A program made the translations under genes and the position numbers. A DNA stretch of 34,979 nucleotides, from assembly GCF_009936045.1 (NCBI RefSeq), contig NZ_QWEQ01000030.1, forward strand, positions 1-34,979. Direction: 5' to 3'. The DNA comes from Emergencia sp. 1XD21-10. GTDB lineage: Bacteria > Bacillota > Clostridia > Peptostreptococcales > Anaerovoracaceae. Of this stretch, positions 17,606 through 27,871 are shown one piece after another; position 1 is the stretch's first letter; the number at the start of each line of letters is the position of its first letter. Below the pieces are notes generated by a model, which was given only the letters and a program-made list of their open reading frames with translations, did not search any database and was not told the DNA's origin.

Positions 17606-17646
17606 TCCATAAAATATATTTATTGGAAATAAGATTGGAGGTTACC

Positions 17647-18747
17647 ATGAATAAACAAAATAGTAAAAATAACTCACCGAATTCTCAGCACGTCGATGAC
17701 ACTTTCTTCAAAAATCCTAACCGCTGGCTCATCGGCTATGAGGATGACTGGGTATTTCATTATGTCTTTGGGCAAAATACAAAAGAAAGCAAAGATGCTC
17801 TAATTGCTTTTCTCAATGTCATTCTCTGCAAAGAGAAAAATCCTATCACAAGCATTGAAATTCTCAACCCTATCAATTATCGCACTTATCCAGCTGATAA
17901 AGAAACAACTCTGGATATCAAAGCCCGCACATCACAAAACGAGCTCTTTGATATTGAGCTACAAAATGGAAATTTGAAACACTATCCAAATCGCTGTGTG
18001 CAGTACGGTGGGAAACTGGTTAATTTGTCATTGGAAAAGGGAGAAGATTATGATAAAATGGGAAAAAGCATTGTTATCTCCATTGTAACGGGAACCCTGT
18101 TCCCGAACATTCCTGGCATTCATACTACATTCCATCTGTGGGAGGATTCCTGCCGCCACCTGCTTAGTGACCGACTGGAAATGCATTTCATCGAGCTGGG
18201 AAAAGTGCAGACAGATAAACCAATGGAAGCAATGAACAACGTGGAGCAGCTTGCCGCCTATCTGAAACTGGCAGGCGAAGAAAAATCCGCAAATTATTTA
18301 AAGACCCTAATTGAAGATGGAGGTGAAGCAATTCAGATGGCAGAAAAAGTATTTCAGCGTGCATCAGAAGATTTTTATGCCAGAGTTCGTCAGATGGAAA
18401 TTGAAATGCGCGAACATGATTTGGCGACAAAACGATTGCTGGAGGAAGAAGAACGAGCCGAACGGCTTCAGGAAGCTGAAAATAAAGGCATTGAAATTGG
18501 TATGAACAAGGGACTCAAGAAGGGGATTGAGCAAGGACTCAAGCAAGGACTAGAAAGGGGACTTGAACAAGGGATCCAACAGGGGCTTGAACAAGGGATC
18601 CAACAAGGGCTTGTTCAAAGTATCCGAGTACTGATTCTTGATAATCGCTCCGAAGGGATTTCTGAAGAAAAAATTCTACGCAAGCTTGTCACAATATTCA
18701 ACCTGAACGAGAACGATGCCCTGCATTACATGAATCAGTACAAATAA
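17647..18747 (+). CDS. Rpn-family PD-(D/E)XK nuclease / putative transposase
   Basis: A 366-residue protein of the family annotated as recombination-promoting nuclease or PDDEXK_2 transposase. The N-terminal half has DDWVFHYVFGQ, KDALIAFLNVIL, then TLDIKARTSQNELFDIELQ with the Asp and the ExQ motif of the nuclease core. The later FHLWED and LEMHFIELGK are also typical. The C-terminal part is a charged helix (about 225-280), then twelve tetrapeptides of the form x-x-G-hydrophobic (279-326), then a short folded tail. Such Gly-repeat tails are common in this family. Start MNKQNSK chosen because TTGGAGG lies just upstream; the frame opens at 17623. In E. coli RpnA cleaves DNA and raises recombination; activity here is inferred. 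Confidence 0.85.
   Translation: MNKQNSKNNSPNSQHVDDTFFKNPNRWLIGYEDDWVFHYVFGQNTKESKDALIAFLNVILCKEKNPITSIEILNPINYRTYPADKETTLDIKARTSQNELFDIELQNGNLKHYPNRCVQYGGKLVNLSLEKGEDYDKMGKSIVISIVTGTLFPNIPGIHTTFHLWEDSCRHLLSDRLEMHFIELGKVQTDKPMEAMNNVEQLAAYLKLAGEEKSANYLKTLIEDGGEAIQMAEKVFQRASEDFYARVRQMEIEMREHDLATKRLLEEEERAERLQEAENKGIEIGMNKGLKKGIEQGLKQGLERGLEQGIQQGLEQGIQQGLVQSIRVLILDNRSEGISEEKILRKLVTIFNLNENDALHYMNQYK
18481..18624 (+). repeat. 12-bp coding minisatellite in the Rpn-family gene
   Basis: Twelve consecutive 12-bp units coding x-x-G-(L/I/M). Units 8-9 and 10-11 form a near-perfect 24-bp duplication (18565-18588 and 18589-18612, one base different). Length changes would keep the frame. Confidence 0.85.
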
Positions 18748-20399: not shown

Positions 20400-22358
20400 T
20401 TATTTTTCCTGCTGTGCCTGATAGTCAGCGATAATCTTTTCAGACAGCTGTTTTGGCACTTCTTCGTATCTTTCAAATCTCATTTCAAAGACGCCTCTAC
20501 CCTGAGTCATGGAGCGAAGAACCAGCGCATAATCGAAGAGCTCAGCCTGCGGCGCTTCTGCAAGAATCTTCTGTCCGCCTCCATTCTGTGGTTCCATACC
20601 TAAAATCTTGCCTCTTCTCTTGTTCATGTCGCCCATTACGTCACCCATGTAATCATCGGAAACGAAGATTTCCATGTGCATAATCGGCTCCAGAAGGCAA
20701 GGCTTTGCTTCGACGATACCTTTCTTGAATGCCAGAGATGCAGCAATCTTGAAGGATACTTCGTTGGAGTCTACATCGTGGTAAGAACCATCGTACAATA
20801 CAGCCTTAACGTTTACTACCTTGCAGCCTGCAAGAGGACCTTTCTGCATACTTTCAATGAGTCCTTTTTCAACAGCAGGCACGTAGTTCTTTGGAATAGA
20901 ACCGCCGAAGAGTTCTTCGGAGAATTCAAATTCCTGCTGAGATGGTGAGAATCTGATGTGTACGTCACCGTACTGACCAGCGCCTCCGGACTGTTTCTTA
21001 TGTTTACCCTGTACATCAGAATTGCCCTTGATGGTTTCTCTGTAAGCAATCTTCTGCGGCACAACCTTAACAGTAACACCGAATCTGTCTTTTAACTTCG
21101 CCATAATGATACCCAGCTGGATATCGCCCTGACCGCCAAGAAGGGTCTGATGGGTTTCAGCGTTTCTTTCTACTACAAAGGACGGATCTTCTTCTCTCAG
21201 TCTTGAAAGACCTGTTCCCATCTTTTCTTCGTCTCCCTTATCAGCAGCTTCAATTGCGACGTAATAAGTCGGAGATGGATAATCCAGTGGCAGATATCTT
21301 ACGATATCGCTCTTGTCGCAAAGGGTATCGCCTGAAACGGTATACTGCAGTTTTGCAACGGCTACAATGTCGCCTGCTTCTGCATAGTTCAGTTCCAGCT
21401 GTTCTTTACCTCTGAGGAAGAACAGCTTGCCAAGCTTTTCAGCTTTTCCTGCTCTCTCGTTGTAAACTTCTGTACCGGAGTTAATCTTACCGGTTACCAC
21501 CTTCATGATGGAAATTTTTCCTACAAACGGGTCAACAATTGTCTTAAATACAAACGCAGACATCGGTGCGTCGGTGACAGAAATTTTTTCTACCGGCTCG
21601 TTCTTGTCGTTGAATCCCGGATATGCACCATGCTGCAGCGGTGTAGGAACATAGGTCAGCAACAGGTCTAGAAGACCTTCAATACCTTGTCCCAGCTGAA
21701 ATGCCGAAGAGCATACAGGGACAATAACGCCTTCGGAAATGCCTTTGATTAAGCCATTTCTTACTTCTTCATCAGAAAAATCATCTCCGTTGAAGTATTT
21801 TTCCATCAGTTCATCGTCAGCCATTGCGATTGCTTCTTTCAGCTCTTCGTCGATTTCTGCAGAAAGTGGCCAGCTGAATGGAATCAGTGTTTCACCGAAT
21901 TTTGCCTTCAGTTCATCAAAGGTTTTATAAAAGTCAAATTCGTCCTTATCTCTCTTATTGATAACGATGAATCTAGGTTTCTTATATCTTTCACAAGCAT
22001 TCCATGCAGCTTCGGTTCCTACCTGAATACCTGAACCTGCATCTACCAGAATCACAGCAGCCTCAGCAGCGCGAAGGGCCGCATTTACTTCGCCGACAAA
22101 GTCGAAATATCCCGGTGTATCGATAAAATTAATCTTGCTGTTCTTCCACTCAATTGGAACAACAGAAGTATTAATGGAATAACCTTTTTCAATTTCCATT
22201 TTGTCGTAGTCGGATACTGTATTTCCGTCCTCGACTTTACCCAATTTTGTGATTACGCCTGTTTCTAACAGAGCGGCTTCCAGGAATGTAGTTTTACCAC
22301 ATCCGCCATGTCCTAATAAAGCAACATTTCTAATTGTTTCGCTTGTGTAGCCTTTCAT
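20400..22358 (-). CDS. EF-G-like translation GTPase (paralogue)
   Basis: A 652-residue protein with the EF-G domain order: G domain with P-loop GHGGCGKTT (16-24), switch II DTPGYFDF and NKRD; domain II (MSAFVFKTIVDPFVGKISIM, then RAGKAEKLGKLFFLRG); domains III-V (GLSRLREEDPSFVVERNAET, GEQ-like ILGGQGDIQLGI, domain IV with IPKNYVPAVEKGLIE, and C-terminal EPIMHMEIFVSDDYMG). It is shorter than housekeeping EF-G, whose P-loop is AHIDAGKTT, so this is most likely the second, EF-G-like family member found in Clostridia and Actinobacteria. Its role (alternative elongation, ribosome recycling or rescue) is not settled. It is monocistronic, with AGGAGG, own promoter and terminator. Confidence 0.88.
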   Translation of the reverse strand: MKGYTSETIRNVALLGHGGCGKTTFLEAALLETGVITKLGKVEDGNTVSDYDKMEIEKGYSINTSVVPIEWKNSKINFIDTPGYFDFVGEVNAALRAAEAAVILVDAGSGIQVGTEAAWNACERYKKPRFIVINKRDKDEFDFYKTFDELKAKFGETLIPFSWPLSAEIDEELKEAIAMADDELMEKYFNGDDFSDEEVRNGLIKGISEGVIVPVCSSAFQLGQGIEGLLDLLLTYVPTPLQHGAYPGFNDKNEPVEKISVTDAPMSAFVFKTIVDPFVGKISIMKVVTGKINSGTEVYNERAGKAEKLGKLFFLRGKEQLELNYAEAGDIVAVAKLQYTVSGDTLCDKSDIVRYLPLDYPSPTYYVAIEAADKGDEEKMGTGLSRLREEDPSFVVERNAETHQTLLGGQGDIQLGIIMAKLKDRFGVTVKVVPQKIAYRETIKGNSDVQGKHKKQSGGAGQYGDVHIRFSPSQQEFEFSEELFGGSIPKNYVPAVEKGLIESMQKGPLAGCKVVNVKAVLYDGSYHDVDSNEVSFKIAASLAFKKGIVEAKPCLLEPIMHMEIFVSDDYMGDVMGDMNKRRGKILGMEPQNGGGQKILAEAPQAELFDYALVLRSMTQGRGVFEMRFERYEEVPKQLSEKIIADYQAQQEK

Positions 22359-24304: not shown

Positions 24305-25699
24305 TTAAAATTCTGCAGTTTTCGGTGTTCTTGGGAACGGCAGAACATCTCTGATGTTGCCCATTCCGGTCAAGTACATAATCATTCTCTCAAAGCCTAA
24401 ACCGTAGCCGGCATGTTTTACGCCGCCGTATTTACGCAGATCCAGGTACCACCAGTAGTCTTTTTCATCAAGACCAAGTTCTGCCATGCGGGCAGTAAGC
24501 ACGTCCAGACGCTCTTCTCTCTGGCTTCCGCCGATGATTTCACCAACACCCGGCACCAGCAAGTCGCAGGCTGCAACGGTCTTGTTGTCATCGTTTAATC
24601 GCATATAGAATGCCTTGATATCCTTTGGATAATCCGTAACGAAAATCGGCTTCTTGAATACTTCTTCTGTCAAATAGCGCTCATGCTCTGTCTGCAGGTC
24701 AATACCCCATTCTACCGGATACTGGAACTCCTTGCCGGACTTCAGCAGCAAATCTACTGCTTCAGTATAGGTGACTCTGCCAAAATCGGAATTTACGATA
24801 TTATCCAGTCTTTCCAACAGCCCTTTATCAATGAAGCTATTGAAAAACGCCATCTCTTCCGGTGCATGCTCGCGCACGTAGTTGATAATATATTTTACCA
24901 TAGCTTCCGCTAAATCCATATTATCGTTCAAATCAGCAAACGCAATTTCCGGCTCAATCATCCAAAACTCAGAAGCGTGTCTTGTAGTATTGGAATTTTC
25001 TGCTCTAAAGGTCGGTCCAAAGGTGTATACGTTTCTGAATGCCATAGCAAAGGTCTCTGCTTCCAGCTGTCCGCTTACAGTCAAACTGGTTTCCTTGCCG
25101 AAGAAATCCTGGCTGTAGTCGATCTTTCCATCTTCAGTCATAGGCAGATTGTCCATATCTAAAGTCGTAATGCGGAACATCTCACCTGCACCCTCGCAGT
25201 CACTGCCCGTAATAATCGGAGTATGTGCATAGACAAAATCCTGCTCCTGAAAGAATTTGTGCACGGCGTAAGCTACCAGAGAACGCACTCTGAACACCGC
25301 AGAGAAGGTGTTGCTTCTAGGTCTCAGATGCGCAATCTCTCTAAGGAACTCCATGGAGTGGCGTTTCTTCTGCAACGGATAATCTGCGGCAGAATCCGCC
25401 TCCATCGTCACCTCTTCTGCCTTGATTTCAAAAGGCTGCTTTGCTTCCGGTGTCAGCACCAGTGTGCCGCGAACCAGCCAAGCAGATGCAATCGGGGCCT
25501 TTGCAACTTCTTCAAAGTTGCTGATTTTGTCAGCCTCATAAACAACCTGCACGGACTTGAAAAAAGTACCGTCGTTGAGTTCTATAAATCCAAACTTATT
25601 AGAACTTCTATTGGTTCTGACCCAGCCTCTGACAACAACTTCCTTGTCGGCATAGGAGGCGGTGTTTCTGTGAAGTTCTCTAAGCTGTATATCTTTCAT
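24305..25699 (-). CDS. asnS: Asparaginyl-tRNA synthetase
   Basis: A 464-residue class IIb synthetase charging tRNA-Asn. N-terminal OB fold (about 1-105) with [21 protein letters not shown] (read as VVVRGWVRT and FGFIELNDG). Motif 1 and catalytic core: [34 protein letters not shown], then motif 2 [19 protein letters not shown] and motif 3 [23 protein letters not shown] marks AsnRS rather than AspRS. The presence of a direct AsnRS means Asn-tRNA need not be made by GatCAB. Start at the second ATG (MKDIQLRE) because AAGGAAGG is eight bases away from it and too close to the first. Confidence 0.97.
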
Positions 25700-25742
25700 T
25701 CTCATAACCTTCCTTTATAAAAATCGTTTATATCATTTATAC

Positions 25743-25771
25743 ATCATACCATGTAATTCCAATGACTTCAA
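25743..25771 (-). promoter_or_regulatory. asnS promoter (overlaps hipT stop)
   Basis: On the minus strand: TTGAAG, 17-base spacer, TATGAT, about 40 bases before asnS. The -35 overlaps the end of hipT, and no terminator separates the hip operon from asnS, so read-through is possible. Confidence 0.55.
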
Positions 25772-26730
25772 GAGCTGATTGCAGCGATTCTAGCAGAAAT
25801 CAATGCTTTTAAACTTTCTTTCATTTCTTCCGTTAAATATGAATCCTCACATTGCAAAAAAAAGGCGTCCTTCAGTCCACATATCCTTCCAATCATCTTT
25901 TCAGCAGATTTTTCAGGAATCCCGCAATGTGCAGCAAACTCCAAGAAATCCCTTCTCTTCAACCTTTTTCTCTTTCCATTTAAGGTAAGCGCTGTTTCAT
26001 CAGTATCTTCCGGTATAATCACATTAACAGGCAGTAAATCATATGCTTGCGACAGGCAAAATTCTCTATTTGCCGGCGCAGTTTCTATTAAAGAAAAATT
26101 CTTTAAATGCATATCAGAGTTTCCAATAATATAAGAAAACACTAGCCGCATATAAAGTTCTGATAAATCAAAGCCCCTATTAACCGAATACGCATTAATT
26201 ATTTTTCCACATATTTCGTATGACGCTTTATATTTGTCCAAGGTCAATCTTCCCGAAAGCTGGCAAAAGTCCTCCATGGCATACAGTTCTACCGAATCCC
26301 CATCTATAAGTCTGTCAATGCGTCTTGTAATATATGCGTATTCGTCATGAATTTTCACCAGTCCGTGAGGCACTGTCTTTACCCCCGCAATCCTTGCTAA
26401 CCTCATCGCCAAATCTTCAAACTCCGGAAGCTTCTCAAATTCGTCAGTTTGCGGCTTTAAAATATAACCCGTTGGATAGTCTACAAGTGTAAGACGGGAT
26501 TCCGTTTCTGTGGATAAGTGCAGTGAAAGCTTCTTCTGCACCCCAGGAACTGTCAATCCTTTATTTACCGTCTTCCTTGCTAACTGATTTAATCCCTCTT
26601 TTGTCACATCTAAAATAGGCATTTTATCCGTACCAAAAAAAGCTTTTACACACTTCTTGTGCCAGCAAGAATCTTTCTCCTCCAGCGACACCGAATCCCT
26701 AATATCCTTTTGACAGTATAAGCATTTCAT
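25768..26730 (-). CDS. hipT: HipT-like serine/threonine kinase toxin (HipA C-terminal part)
   Basis: A 320-residue HipA-like kinase lacking the HipA N-subdomain, which is encoded by the gene before it. Seen: a small metal-binding-like start with C3, C6, H24 and C27; Gly-rich loop LTVPGVQKKLSL (T60-V-P-G63); ATP lysine in GYILKPQ (K92); catalytic loop GNSDMHLKNFSL (D206, N211); and metal Asp in QAYDLLP (D231). These core residues are intact, so it should be active. HipA of E. coli phosphorylates GltX and HipT of E. coli O127 phosphorylates TrpS (known); the target here is unknown. The autophosphorylated serines of HipT correspond to Thr and Pro here. It starts two bases after hipS. Expected effect: growth arrest when not restrained. 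Confidence 0.88.
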   Translation of the reverse strand: MKCLYCQKDIRDSVSLEEKDSCWHKKCVKAFFGTDKMPILDVTKEGLNQLARKTVNKGLTVPGVQKKLSLHLSTETESRLTLVDYPTGYILKPQTDEFEKLPEFEDLAMRLARIAGVKTVPHGLVKIHDEYAYITRRIDRLIDGDSVELYAMEDFCQLSGRLTLDKYKASYEICGKIINAYSVNRGFDLSELYMRLVFSYIIGNSDMHLKNFSLIETAPANREFCLSQAYDLLPVNVIIPEDTDETALTLNGKRKRLKRRDFLEFAAHCGIPEKSAEKMIGRICGLKDAFFLQCEDSYLTEEMKESLKALISARIAAISS

Positions 26731-26732
26731 CT

Positions 26733-27065
26733 CTATTCTTTCTCCGTTCTGATCGACACATCACCGATACAATCCCTACAAGTTAAAAGCAGTAGACCAA
26801 ACCGGTCGTTAGCATTGATTTTCCAGTTCCTGCTTGCAACATCAAGAAGCCAGCCTTCTGGAACAAGACCATCAAAAAAAGAAAATAGCATGCTAGCACT
26901 ATAACCCTTCTCGCTTAAAGGTAGTGTCAAGCTAACTGCCACTGCGTTTTCCTTGTTTCTATATTCATTATCATAAGAAAAAGTATATCCTTCCTCTGTT
27001 TCTGCTACTACCCCTGCGTACTGATTTTGGATATATACATATCCTTTTCGATACTCTAATGGCAT
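26733..27065 (-). CDS. hipS: HipS-like antitoxin (HipA N-terminal subdomain)
   Basis: A 110-residue free-standing N-terminal HipA subdomain: YVYIQNQYAGVVAETEEGYTF-like beta strands (about 9-31), AVAVSLTLPLSEKGYSA (41-57), and FSFFDGLVPEGWLLDV (61-76), ending with the strand CIGDVSI. In the E. coli O127 HipBST system HipS is the antitoxin that blocks HipT, with a Trp inserted near the kinase site; W72 in PEGW is the likely equivalent (inference). Start MPLEYRKG chosen because AAGGAGAG lies inside the end of hipB just upstream; the frame opens at 27113. It sits one base after hipB and two bases before hipT, so the three are co-translated. Confidence 0.85.
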   Translation of the reverse strand: MPLEYRKGYVYIQNQYAGVVAETEEGYTFSYDNEYRNKENAVAVSLTLPLSEKGYSASMLFSFFDGLVPEGWLLDVASRNWKINANDRFGLLLLTCRDCIGDVSIRTEKE

Positions 27066-27066
27066 T

Positions 27067-27267
27067 CTATCTCTCCTTTTTAACAGGCATTGCTTCCATG
27101 CCAAACATCGCAAGTGCCTGATTTACCTTATCCAGTCGTACAGTTTCCTTCCCCTGCTCTAACTCTCTGACAAAACGCAGTCCAAGGCCCGAACGTATAG
27201 CAAATTCCTCTTGCGTCAACCCTAACTTTTTTCTTTCTTGTTTTATATAATATCCAATTCTATTCAT
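27067..27267 (-). CDS. hipB: HipB-like Xre-family DNA-binding protein
   Basis: A 66-residue helix-turn-helix regulator: IGYYIKQERKKLGLTQEEFA, RSGLGLRFVRELEQG, ETVRLDKVNQALAMFG is a complete Cro/C1-type fold with recognition helix around LGLRFVRELE. In hip systems HipB represses its own operon. An in-frame TAA lies 12 bases upstream, so the ATG at 27267 is the first possible start, but no Shine-Dalgarno sequence precedes it. The -10 element ends six bases before the ATG, which points to a leaderless message. The C-terminal tail (MPVKKER) is short compared with E. coli HipB. Confidence 0.88.
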   Translation of the reverse strand: MNRIGYYIKQERKKLGLTQEEFAIRSGLGLRFVRELEQGKETVRLDKVNQALAMFGMEAMPVKKER

Positions 27268-27273
27268 ATTTAC

Positions 27274-27302
27274 ATATTACACCCTATCGGGTGCATTTTC
27301 AA
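27274..27302 (-). promoter_or_regulatory. hipBST promoter with operator in its spacer
   Basis: On the minus strand: TTGAAA (27302-27297), 17-base spacer, TAATAT (27279-27274). The palindrome CACCC-N4-GGGTG (27280-27293) fills the spacer next to the -10. Binding there would block polymerase directly, so autorepression by HipB is a sound inference. Transcription should start at or next to the hipB ATG. Confidence 0.75.
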
Positions 27303-27316
27303 TCATTTTTTCTATT

Positions 27317-27336
27317 ATATACCCTTTAGGGTATAT
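27317..27336. promoter_or_regulatory. Second HipB-type operator palindrome
   Basis: Perfect arms ATATACCC and GGGTATAT around TTTA. It lies 24 bases upstream of the hipB -35 and shares the ACCC-N4-GGGT core with the spacer operator. A TATAAT on the minus strand overlaps its left arm and could be a second -10. Confidence 0.7.
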
Positions 27337-27358: not shown

Positions 27359-27871
27359 TTATACCCCTTCAGGTATAGTTTTCTCTTTTTCAAATTCCAG
27401 CCGCATATCATTCCAGACTGCACCACCGTGAGCCGACTCTGACACCCCGATTTTCTGAAAGCCGAATTTCTCATAATATGCAATTAAATAATCCTTGCAC
27501 GCCAGGATTATTCCCTTAAGCCCTGCCTGCCTTGCCGCCTCAATACTGTACTCCAAAACCTGCCCGGCAAAGCCTTTCTTTCTGTGTTCGTCCGATGTCA
27601 GAACTGATAAAATCGCAAAATACGGACCCGCCTCAAGGGATATATTTTCATAAAGCGCATCAGAAAACACATCCCGCTGCGTCAGTCTTCCCACTACCGC
27701 GCTGACAATCTCACCATCAAGCTCTCCCACAAAGAACCAGTCGCTGATGTTCTTCAAGCGATACTCATAAGTCTCTCGCAAAGCCGCCTCCGCTGGCGGA
27801 AATGCCTGCTTTTCGATTTCCCAAACTCTGTCCAAATCCGGCAGTCTGCCGTTCCGAATGGTTAGTTTCAT
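27359..27871 (-). CDS. GNAT-family N-acetyltransferase
   Basis: A 170-residue acetyltransferase. Motif order: IRNGRLPDLDRVWEIEKQAF at the start, FFVGELDGEIVSAVVGRL, the acetyl-CoA site LTSDEHRKKGFAGQVLEYSI (R/Q-x-x-G-x-G/A variant: RKKGFAG), and YYEKFGFQKIGVSESAHGG. The ending AHGGAVWNDM resembles the arylalkylamine N-acetyltransferase branch of the family, so an amine substrate is possible. It follows prmC by 36 bases and probably ends the rho cluster. ATG at 27871 chosen; a GTG at 27874 is adjacent. Its last codons overlap an operator-like site of the hip module. Confidence 0.88.
   Translation of the reverse strand: MKLTIRNGRLPDLDRVWEIEKQAFPPAEAALRETYEYRLKNISDWFFVGELDGEIVSAVVGRLTQRDVFSDALYENISLEAGPYFAILSVLTSDEHRKKGFAGQVLEYSIEAARQAGLKGIILACKDYLIAYYEKFGFQKIGVSESAHGGAVWNDMRLEFEKEKTIPEGV
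27361..27376. promoter_or_regulatory. Third, weaker operator-like site inside the GNAT gene end
   Basis: ATACC-N6-GGTAT, matching the second operator at 13 of 16 positions. It lies in the last codons of the GNAT gene. The three sites have centre spacings of about 40 bases, which would allow looping or cooperative binding. Confidence 0.45.

Follow-up and report, generated by a model that had tools for sequence, protein, structure and literature searches.

HipBST modules have been studied experimentally in E. coli, H. influenzae, T. auensis and L. pneumophila, all of them Gammaproteobacteria, and HipS was reported to be the antitoxin in both of the studied systems described in PMC8262856 and PMC9325769. 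In the module of Legionella pneumophila (PDB 8ezr, 7vkb), hipB is preceded by three operators at even distances, to which the binding of HipB was determined experimentally (PMC10653801), and the same report gives a wide distribution for the HipBST_Lp clade, above all in the FCB superphylum. Changes in six residues of Legionella HipT (D133, R134, E144, R154, K157 and K201) abolished or reduced the binding of HipS (PMC9325769). The module of E. coli O127:H6 (PDB 7ab3-7ab5) has TrpS as its target and an SIS Gly-rich loop with two phospho-serines. According to PMC10627512, alanine at either of these serine positions almost or completely abolishes toxicity, Trp65 of HipS is needed for neutralisation, HipT has an N-terminal mini-domain 'of unknown significance', and T[IV][TP] loops define a HipT group beside the SIS one.

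Here we analysed a window of 34,979 nucleotides, the whole stretch of contig NZ_QWEQ01000030.1 of Emergencia sp. 1XD21-10, in which an earlier note had claimed a split hipB-hipS-hipT module at 25768..27267 and likened it to that of E. coli O127. The host genome has 3.39 Mb, with the window as its contig 27, and the module is chromosomal. The note's label of a "Clostridium-like" genome was loose, as the nearest named record among the matches listed is an Emergencia sp. MAG of the Anaerovoracaceae, with 88% HipT identity.

The hipBST genes and their solved relatives

27267-27067, minus strand: hipB, ATG start, 66 aa, Y4mF/TIGR03070-type HTH regulator
27065-26733, minus strand: hipS, ATG start, 110 aa, HipA N-subdomain-1 homologue, predicted antitoxin
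26730-25768, minus strand: hipT, ATG start, 320 aa, HipA-like Ser/Thr kinase without N-subdomain 1
24305-25705: asnS, asparaginyl-tRNA synthetase, directly downstream of hipT

Open reading frames and family matches agreed on this three-gene unit, whose sizes and gaps (1 nt between hipB and hipS, 2 nt between hipS and hipT) were as the note had given them. In the family scan, HipT matched HipA_C with 143 bits (cut-off 30.5) and had no match to Couple_hipA up to E 1. HipS matched Couple_hipA (88 bits, E 8.7e-25, cut-off 22.5) and HipB matched TIGR03070 couple_hipB (79 bits, cut-off 71.65). For hipS the list of open reading frames also offers a TTG start giving 126 aa, and an AGGAG site upstream of the ATG at 27065 favours the latter; the hipT ATG is preceded, rather far upstream, by a GGAG. 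The dN/dS values against the 88%-identical relative were 0.072 for hipT, 0.073 for hipS and 0.089 for hipB, those of the neighbouring prmC, GNAT acetyltransferase and asnS genes being 0.063, 0.081 and 0.015; against genome G004 the synonymous sites of hipT were saturated. A chance origin is excluded because of the family E-values and of these dN/dS values of 0.07-0.09.

The tripartite order is that of Legionella, and the best-scoring solved relatives of the three proteins also belong to this organism. The search of the PDB gave 129 bits for Legionella HipT, 65 for E. coli O127 HipT and 22.6 for E. coli HipA; Legionella HipS (65 bits) and Legionella HipB (28.7 bits) were the top matches of HipS and HipB. 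Therefore, the likeness to E. coli O127 stands as regards the HipBST type, and the Legionella-type kinase is the closer model. The HipBST type was evident from the hipB-hipS-hipT order, from HipT being colinear with the kinase core, from the Gly-rich loop of HipT and its motifs for catalysis and Mg binding, and from the correspondence of HipS with N-subdomain 1. In the two-gene HipBA type the kinase includes this subdomain, whereas here the two are separate.

The HipS-HipT interface also fits the HipBST type. E70 and W72 in the PEGW motif of HipS align with Glu63 and Trp65 of E. coli HipS, a motif that in Legionella reads PEGI instead. P[EA]GW was present in 82 of 83 listed loci and, by the pattern used, absent from L063. 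These 83 loci are the window, L010, L011 and L029-L108 (the last being the best 80 of 569 candidate relatives), and consist for the most part of those nearest to the window protein, with near-copies among them, and not of an unbiased sample. Five of the Legionella interface residues, D133, R134, E144, K157 and K201, correspond to D139, R140, E153, K166 and K210 of the window HipT, as read from the pairwise alignment of both HipTs in the PDB search, and all five are invariant in an alignment of 58 rows (58 of 81 sequences, i.e., the window and the best 80 of 569 relatives). The sixth, R154, corresponds to T163 and is not conserved. By sequence and by analogy with the studied systems, we infer that HipS is the antitoxin of this module. 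Taken together, gene order, families, the Glu-Trp pair of HipS, the kinase motifs and most HipS-contact residues bear out the HipBST type, and the module is an ordinary, intact member of an already known family, to which the sections below make modest additions.

Kinase core and N-terminal mini-domain of HipT

The same 58-row alignment showed K92, R137-x-D139-R140, D206, H208, N211 and D231 to be invariant, which agrees with the earlier statement that K92, D206, N211 and D231 are intact. The Gly-rich loop is T60-V-P-G-V-Q, with the triplet TVP, which fits the published T[IV][TP] group, and differs from the S-psi-Q of Legionella (PMC10627512). TVP was found in 63 of the 83 listed loci; the first position was Thr or Ser in 82 of them. 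The S-psi-S criterion of the E. coli SIS group was found in none of the 83. At the first phospho-acceptor position Thr was nearly always present, and the second was Pro, Ala or Thr in nearly all listed loci. As the second position is Pro, the dual-serine logic of E. coli (S57/S59) cannot be transferred. This loop, together with the fact that E. coli is not the closest model (129 versus 65 bits), means that TrpS is not to be assumed as the target.

26611..26730, minus strand: HipT mini-domain, residues 1-40, C3-x2-C6 ... W23-H24-x2-C27, probable zinc site

The CxxC..HxxC motif of this mini-domain was present in 82 of the 83 listed loci (L011 lacked it), a count taken among close relatives, with one of six scan peptide patterns lying on the motif itself. 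C3, C6, W23, H24 and C27 were invariant in the 58 aligned rows, and the predicted structure of the mini-domain had a pLDDT of 91-96 by blocks of ten. The Pfam LIM family scored 13.6 bits against HipT, below its cut-off of 22.9. The motif was also found in the plasmid-encoded HipTs of Bacteroides finegoldii, Parabacteroides distasonis, Runella, Hymenobacter and Persicobacter. The HipT of an Arcobacter plasmid has CxxC..CxxC instead, and that of B. thetaiotaomicron lacks CxxC..HxxC. The alignment with Legionella HipT began at query residue 40, so that the CxxC-WHxxC stretch was left unmatched. Neither PMC8262856 nor PMC10653801 nor PMC9325769 uses the word "zinc" in its main text, and PMC10627512 does not use "zinc finger". 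The ligand pattern and the predicted fold suggest that the mini-domain probably binds zinc.

The predicted hipB promoter and its palindrome array

27274..27302, minus strand: predicted hipBST promoter, TTGAAA (27302-27297), 17-nt spacer, TAATAT (27279-27274)
27280..27293, unstranded: O1, CACCCTATCGGGTG, predicted operator between the -35 and -10 boxes, differing from the 18-nt pattern at 3 positions
27318..27335, unstranded: O2, TATACCCTTTAGGGTATA, predicted operator, perfect match to the pattern
27360..27377, unstranded: O3, TATACCCCTTCAGGTATA, predicted operator, 1 mismatch

Three palindromes of the TACCCN4GGGTA type lie upstream of hipB, and the 39-nt repeats containing them start 40 and 42 nt apart. 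The interval 25768..27267 contains the complete genes; with the palindrome array, the functional unit reaches upstream to about 27377. The evenly spaced triple array is like that of Legionella, whose operators, by contrast, have another sequence and 53-bp gaps (PMC10653801). At 27359-27377 the upstream GNAT acetyltransferase gene ends inside O3, where the palindrome encodes its last residues, IPEGV; the alignment with the nearest relative leaves out the last 8 residues.

The array was then sought in the relatives. hipB was identified in 74 of the 83 listed loci, which gave 73 distinct upstream stretches of at most 260 nt, with the hipB starts picked by rule. Counting sites that agree in at least 8 of 10 positions, there was one in 4 promoters, two in 14, three in 53 and four in 2; thus, 69 of the 73 had at least two, versus 0.34% of dinucleotide shuffles (none in 90.5% of shuffles, two in 0.34%). 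This rule is a loose one, since it also counts a TAGCCN4GGCTA palindrome upstream of an unsplit hipBA (L022). At 9 of 10 positions no site was found in 7 promoters, one in 19, two in 25 and three in 22, so that 47 of the 73 still had at least two; the shuffles never had more than one (one in 0.48%). The spacing was 40-42 nt in 116 of 126 site pairs under the 8-of-10 rule. Three TACCC-type sites about 41 nt apart were also present on the Bacteroidota plasmids of B. finegoldii, P. distasonis, Runella and Hymenobacter, one of the three reaching only 7 of 10 positions in Runella and P. distasonis. The HipB of these plasmids has a recognition region similar to that of the window HipB, and their HipT starts with the same CxxC..HxxC; they differ in a HipT identity of about 40-46%, in being plasmid-borne and in the loop, which is SLT, AVT or TVT. 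No TACCC-type sites were found upstream of the hipBST genes of B. thetaiotaomicron and Arcobacter. All these results evidenced that the palindrome-array promoter is conserved across phyla.

Two unsplit hipBA loci of the same bacterial family (L013 and L022) also have hipB upstream and palindromes before it, but there HipA is unsplit and the palindrome, judged by eye, is TAGCC-N4-GGCTA, with three copies 39 nt apart in L022. From this sequence comparison, the array of operators may predate the splitting of the gene.

Concerning the position of the proximal site, a -35-like box (at least 4 of 6 positions) preceded it in 68 of the 73 promoters, versus 23 of the 126 upstream sites. As such a box precedes the proximal sites and seldom the upstream ones, the proximal site fills the spacer of the promoter. 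The -10-like box did not discriminate, most upstream sites having one too, because it is supplied by the TATA flank of the palindrome itself. A match to promoter consensus alone is weak, since 10 promoter-like sites were found in 1.9 kb against 5.2 expected. HipB is inferred to bind O1-O3 on sequence grounds. With regard to a wider regulon, a search of the whole genome for TATACCCN4GGGTATA with up to 3 mismatches gave 89 forward sites versus 114 in the backward control, i.e., no enrichment, and the only perfect match in the genome was O2.

The predicted -10 box and the hipB ATG are separated by 6 nt, and the list of open reading frames contains no in-frame start upstream of this ATG. In 44 of the 73 upstream stretches, among them that of the window, the proximal site starts exactly at -26, and in 51 of the 73 at -28 or nearer. 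A Shine-Dalgarno-like motif is missing between the site and the ATG in all of these 51; as this interval measures only about 4-13 nt, the lack of the motif is partly due to the short spacing. A few loci, such as L010, L075 and that of Treponema putidum (L093), have a longer hipB leader with a clear Shine-Dalgarno motif; in L043 and L045-L047 the apparent motif belongs to a weaker palindrome. Anti-Shine-Dalgarno duplex energies for hipB were set aside, as the GGG of the operator, upstream of the predicted transcription start, inflates their values. The hipB transcript may be leaderless, as judged from this arrangement.

Distribution, mechanism and rival readings

The branch occurs in Bacillota, Spirochaetota and Bacteroidota, and no functional study of it was found in the open-access literature listings. 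Its distribution is patchy. A HipT match at E≤0.001 was obtained in 18 of the 99 genomes searched, that of the window included, and only six of those 18 (G000, G008, G004, G011, G047 and G058) had a near full-length HipT with at least 54% identity. Within the genus, near full-length hipT was present in 4 of 13 genomes, the window's own included and some of them being incomplete, and therefore the module is dispensable. Of 291 genomes sampled across the class, 9 gave a match at E≤1e-30, the window's own and G011 among them. In another genus relative, without a full-length match, a hipT fragment of about 80 residues with 54% identity (G010:C12:7177-7419, L012) is possibly a decayed copy. The genome of the window has four further, weaker HipA_C genes (L002-L005, on C34, C11 and C8), two over the cut-off and two under it.

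The window has the order GNAT-hipBST-asnS in common with G008 and G004 (whose contigs are those of L029 and L030), and in G011 hipBST and asnS lie on different contigs. Matches to asnS at E 1e-10 were found in 5 of 80 listed loci, some of which have little flank: those of G008 and G004; L084, where the match lies about 3.9 kb downstream and has 54% identity; and L072 and L073, whose matches (25-27% identity, opposite strand) are probably to another class II synthetase. A functional link between hipBST and asnS was rejected, as the adjacency is rare in relatives and looks incidental. A promoter-like site of its own lies before asnS at 25771-25743.

With respect to a phage origin, no match was found in 50,697 phage records, and a scan for viral contigs, which detects close relatives only, had none confirmed. 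Among known defence systems, PADLOC gave only weak partial matches of hipT and hipS, to the candidate PDC-M03. Of the window genes scanned, the only one with a mobile-element-like Pfam name encodes a PD-(D/E)XK family transposase (PDDEXK_2, 17623-18747); another, at 20400-22358, encodes an EF-G-like GTPase of 652 aa that matches EF-G domains.

We consider it very probable that this is an intact chromosomal HipBST module with a growth-stopping kinase HipT, restraint by HipS, autorepression by HipB and a probable zinc mini-domain. Active HipT would stop growth, as sequence and analogy suggest. HipS would dock on HipT with W72 inserted beside the Gly-rich loop, holding the kinase inactive, a step suggested by the E. 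coli and Legionella structures and by the conserved contact residues. HipB dimers would bind the three operators, whose spacing of about 41 bp amounts to some four helical turns, and HipB on the proximal operator, between -35 and -10, would exclude RNA polymerase and thus repress the operon. The N-terminal mini-domain of HipT would probably fold around a zinc ion.

That hipS and hipT are instead a pseudogene pair, left when a single fused hipA was recently broken by a frameshift or nonsense mutation, could be thought from their match to two parts of a single HipA and from their very short spacing. However, the two genes are in separate frames in all 80 relatives (best 80 of 569; ORF scan), and they are split as well on six annotated plasmids, five from Bacteroidota and one from Campylobacterota. 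In the 68 parsed listed loci, a Shine-Dalgarno-like motif precedes hipS in 64 and hipT in 65, and the overlap of both genes is 4 nt in 49; the dN/dS of about 0.07 against the nearest relative also argues against decay. In a 31-row tree with 22 split and 9 unsplit sequences, in which L002-L005 are absent, the window branch joins the split kinases of the Bacteroidota plasmids with a support of 96/97, and the nine unsplit HipAs sampled fall elsewhere. The bootstrap of this tree did not settle completely, and its deep joins are unsafe owing to several long branches; as to a single origin of the split kinases, the split label needs two changes on it, and 8% of the bootstrap trees have one. The phylogeny check for a recent break thus came out against it, the split state being orthologous across phyla, and such a break is highly improbable.

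Two other readings, each of them unlikely, keep the module intact and change its parts. HipB could be the true antitoxin, as in HipBA, with HipS only as a structural subunit; HipB does belong to the couple_hipB subfamily, and in the HipBST system of E. coli neutralisation is stronger with HipB (PMC8262856). Nevertheless, the window HipB is short (66 aa) and contains no Trp, whereas a C-terminal Trp of HipB was proposed to be active in E. coli HipBA (PMC10627512), and HipS has the antitoxin role in both studied systems cited above. Alternatively, HipT could have lost its toxicity and become a domesticated signalling enzyme, a possibility raised by the Thr at the first phospho-serine position and the Pro, Ala or Thr at the second, given the effect of alanine in E. 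coli. Against it, the 58 rows show no change in any catalytic residue, and T[IV][TP] loops are a published HipT class. In addition, tblastn with the window proteins found hipS and hipB together with hipT in all 80 loci (best 80 of 569), as would be expected if HipT needs restraint.

Within the reading of an intact, HipS-restrained module, a more speculative extension, rather doubtful at present, is a metal- or redox-gated HipBST in which loss of zinc or thiol oxidation would free the kinase and a leaderless hipB would shift the ratio of HipB to HipST. If this were true, the CxxC-WHxxC mini-domain would hold zinc and control the binding of HipT to HipS, HipB or the target, and changes in the initiation of translation would shift that ratio through the difference between leaderless hipB and the Shine-Dalgarno-led hipS and hipT. 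For the family, the branch sets a limit to extending the TrpS target beyond E. coli, and it offers two handles, namely the conserved, putative metal-ligand motif of the HipT mini-domain and a palindrome-array promoter found across phyla.
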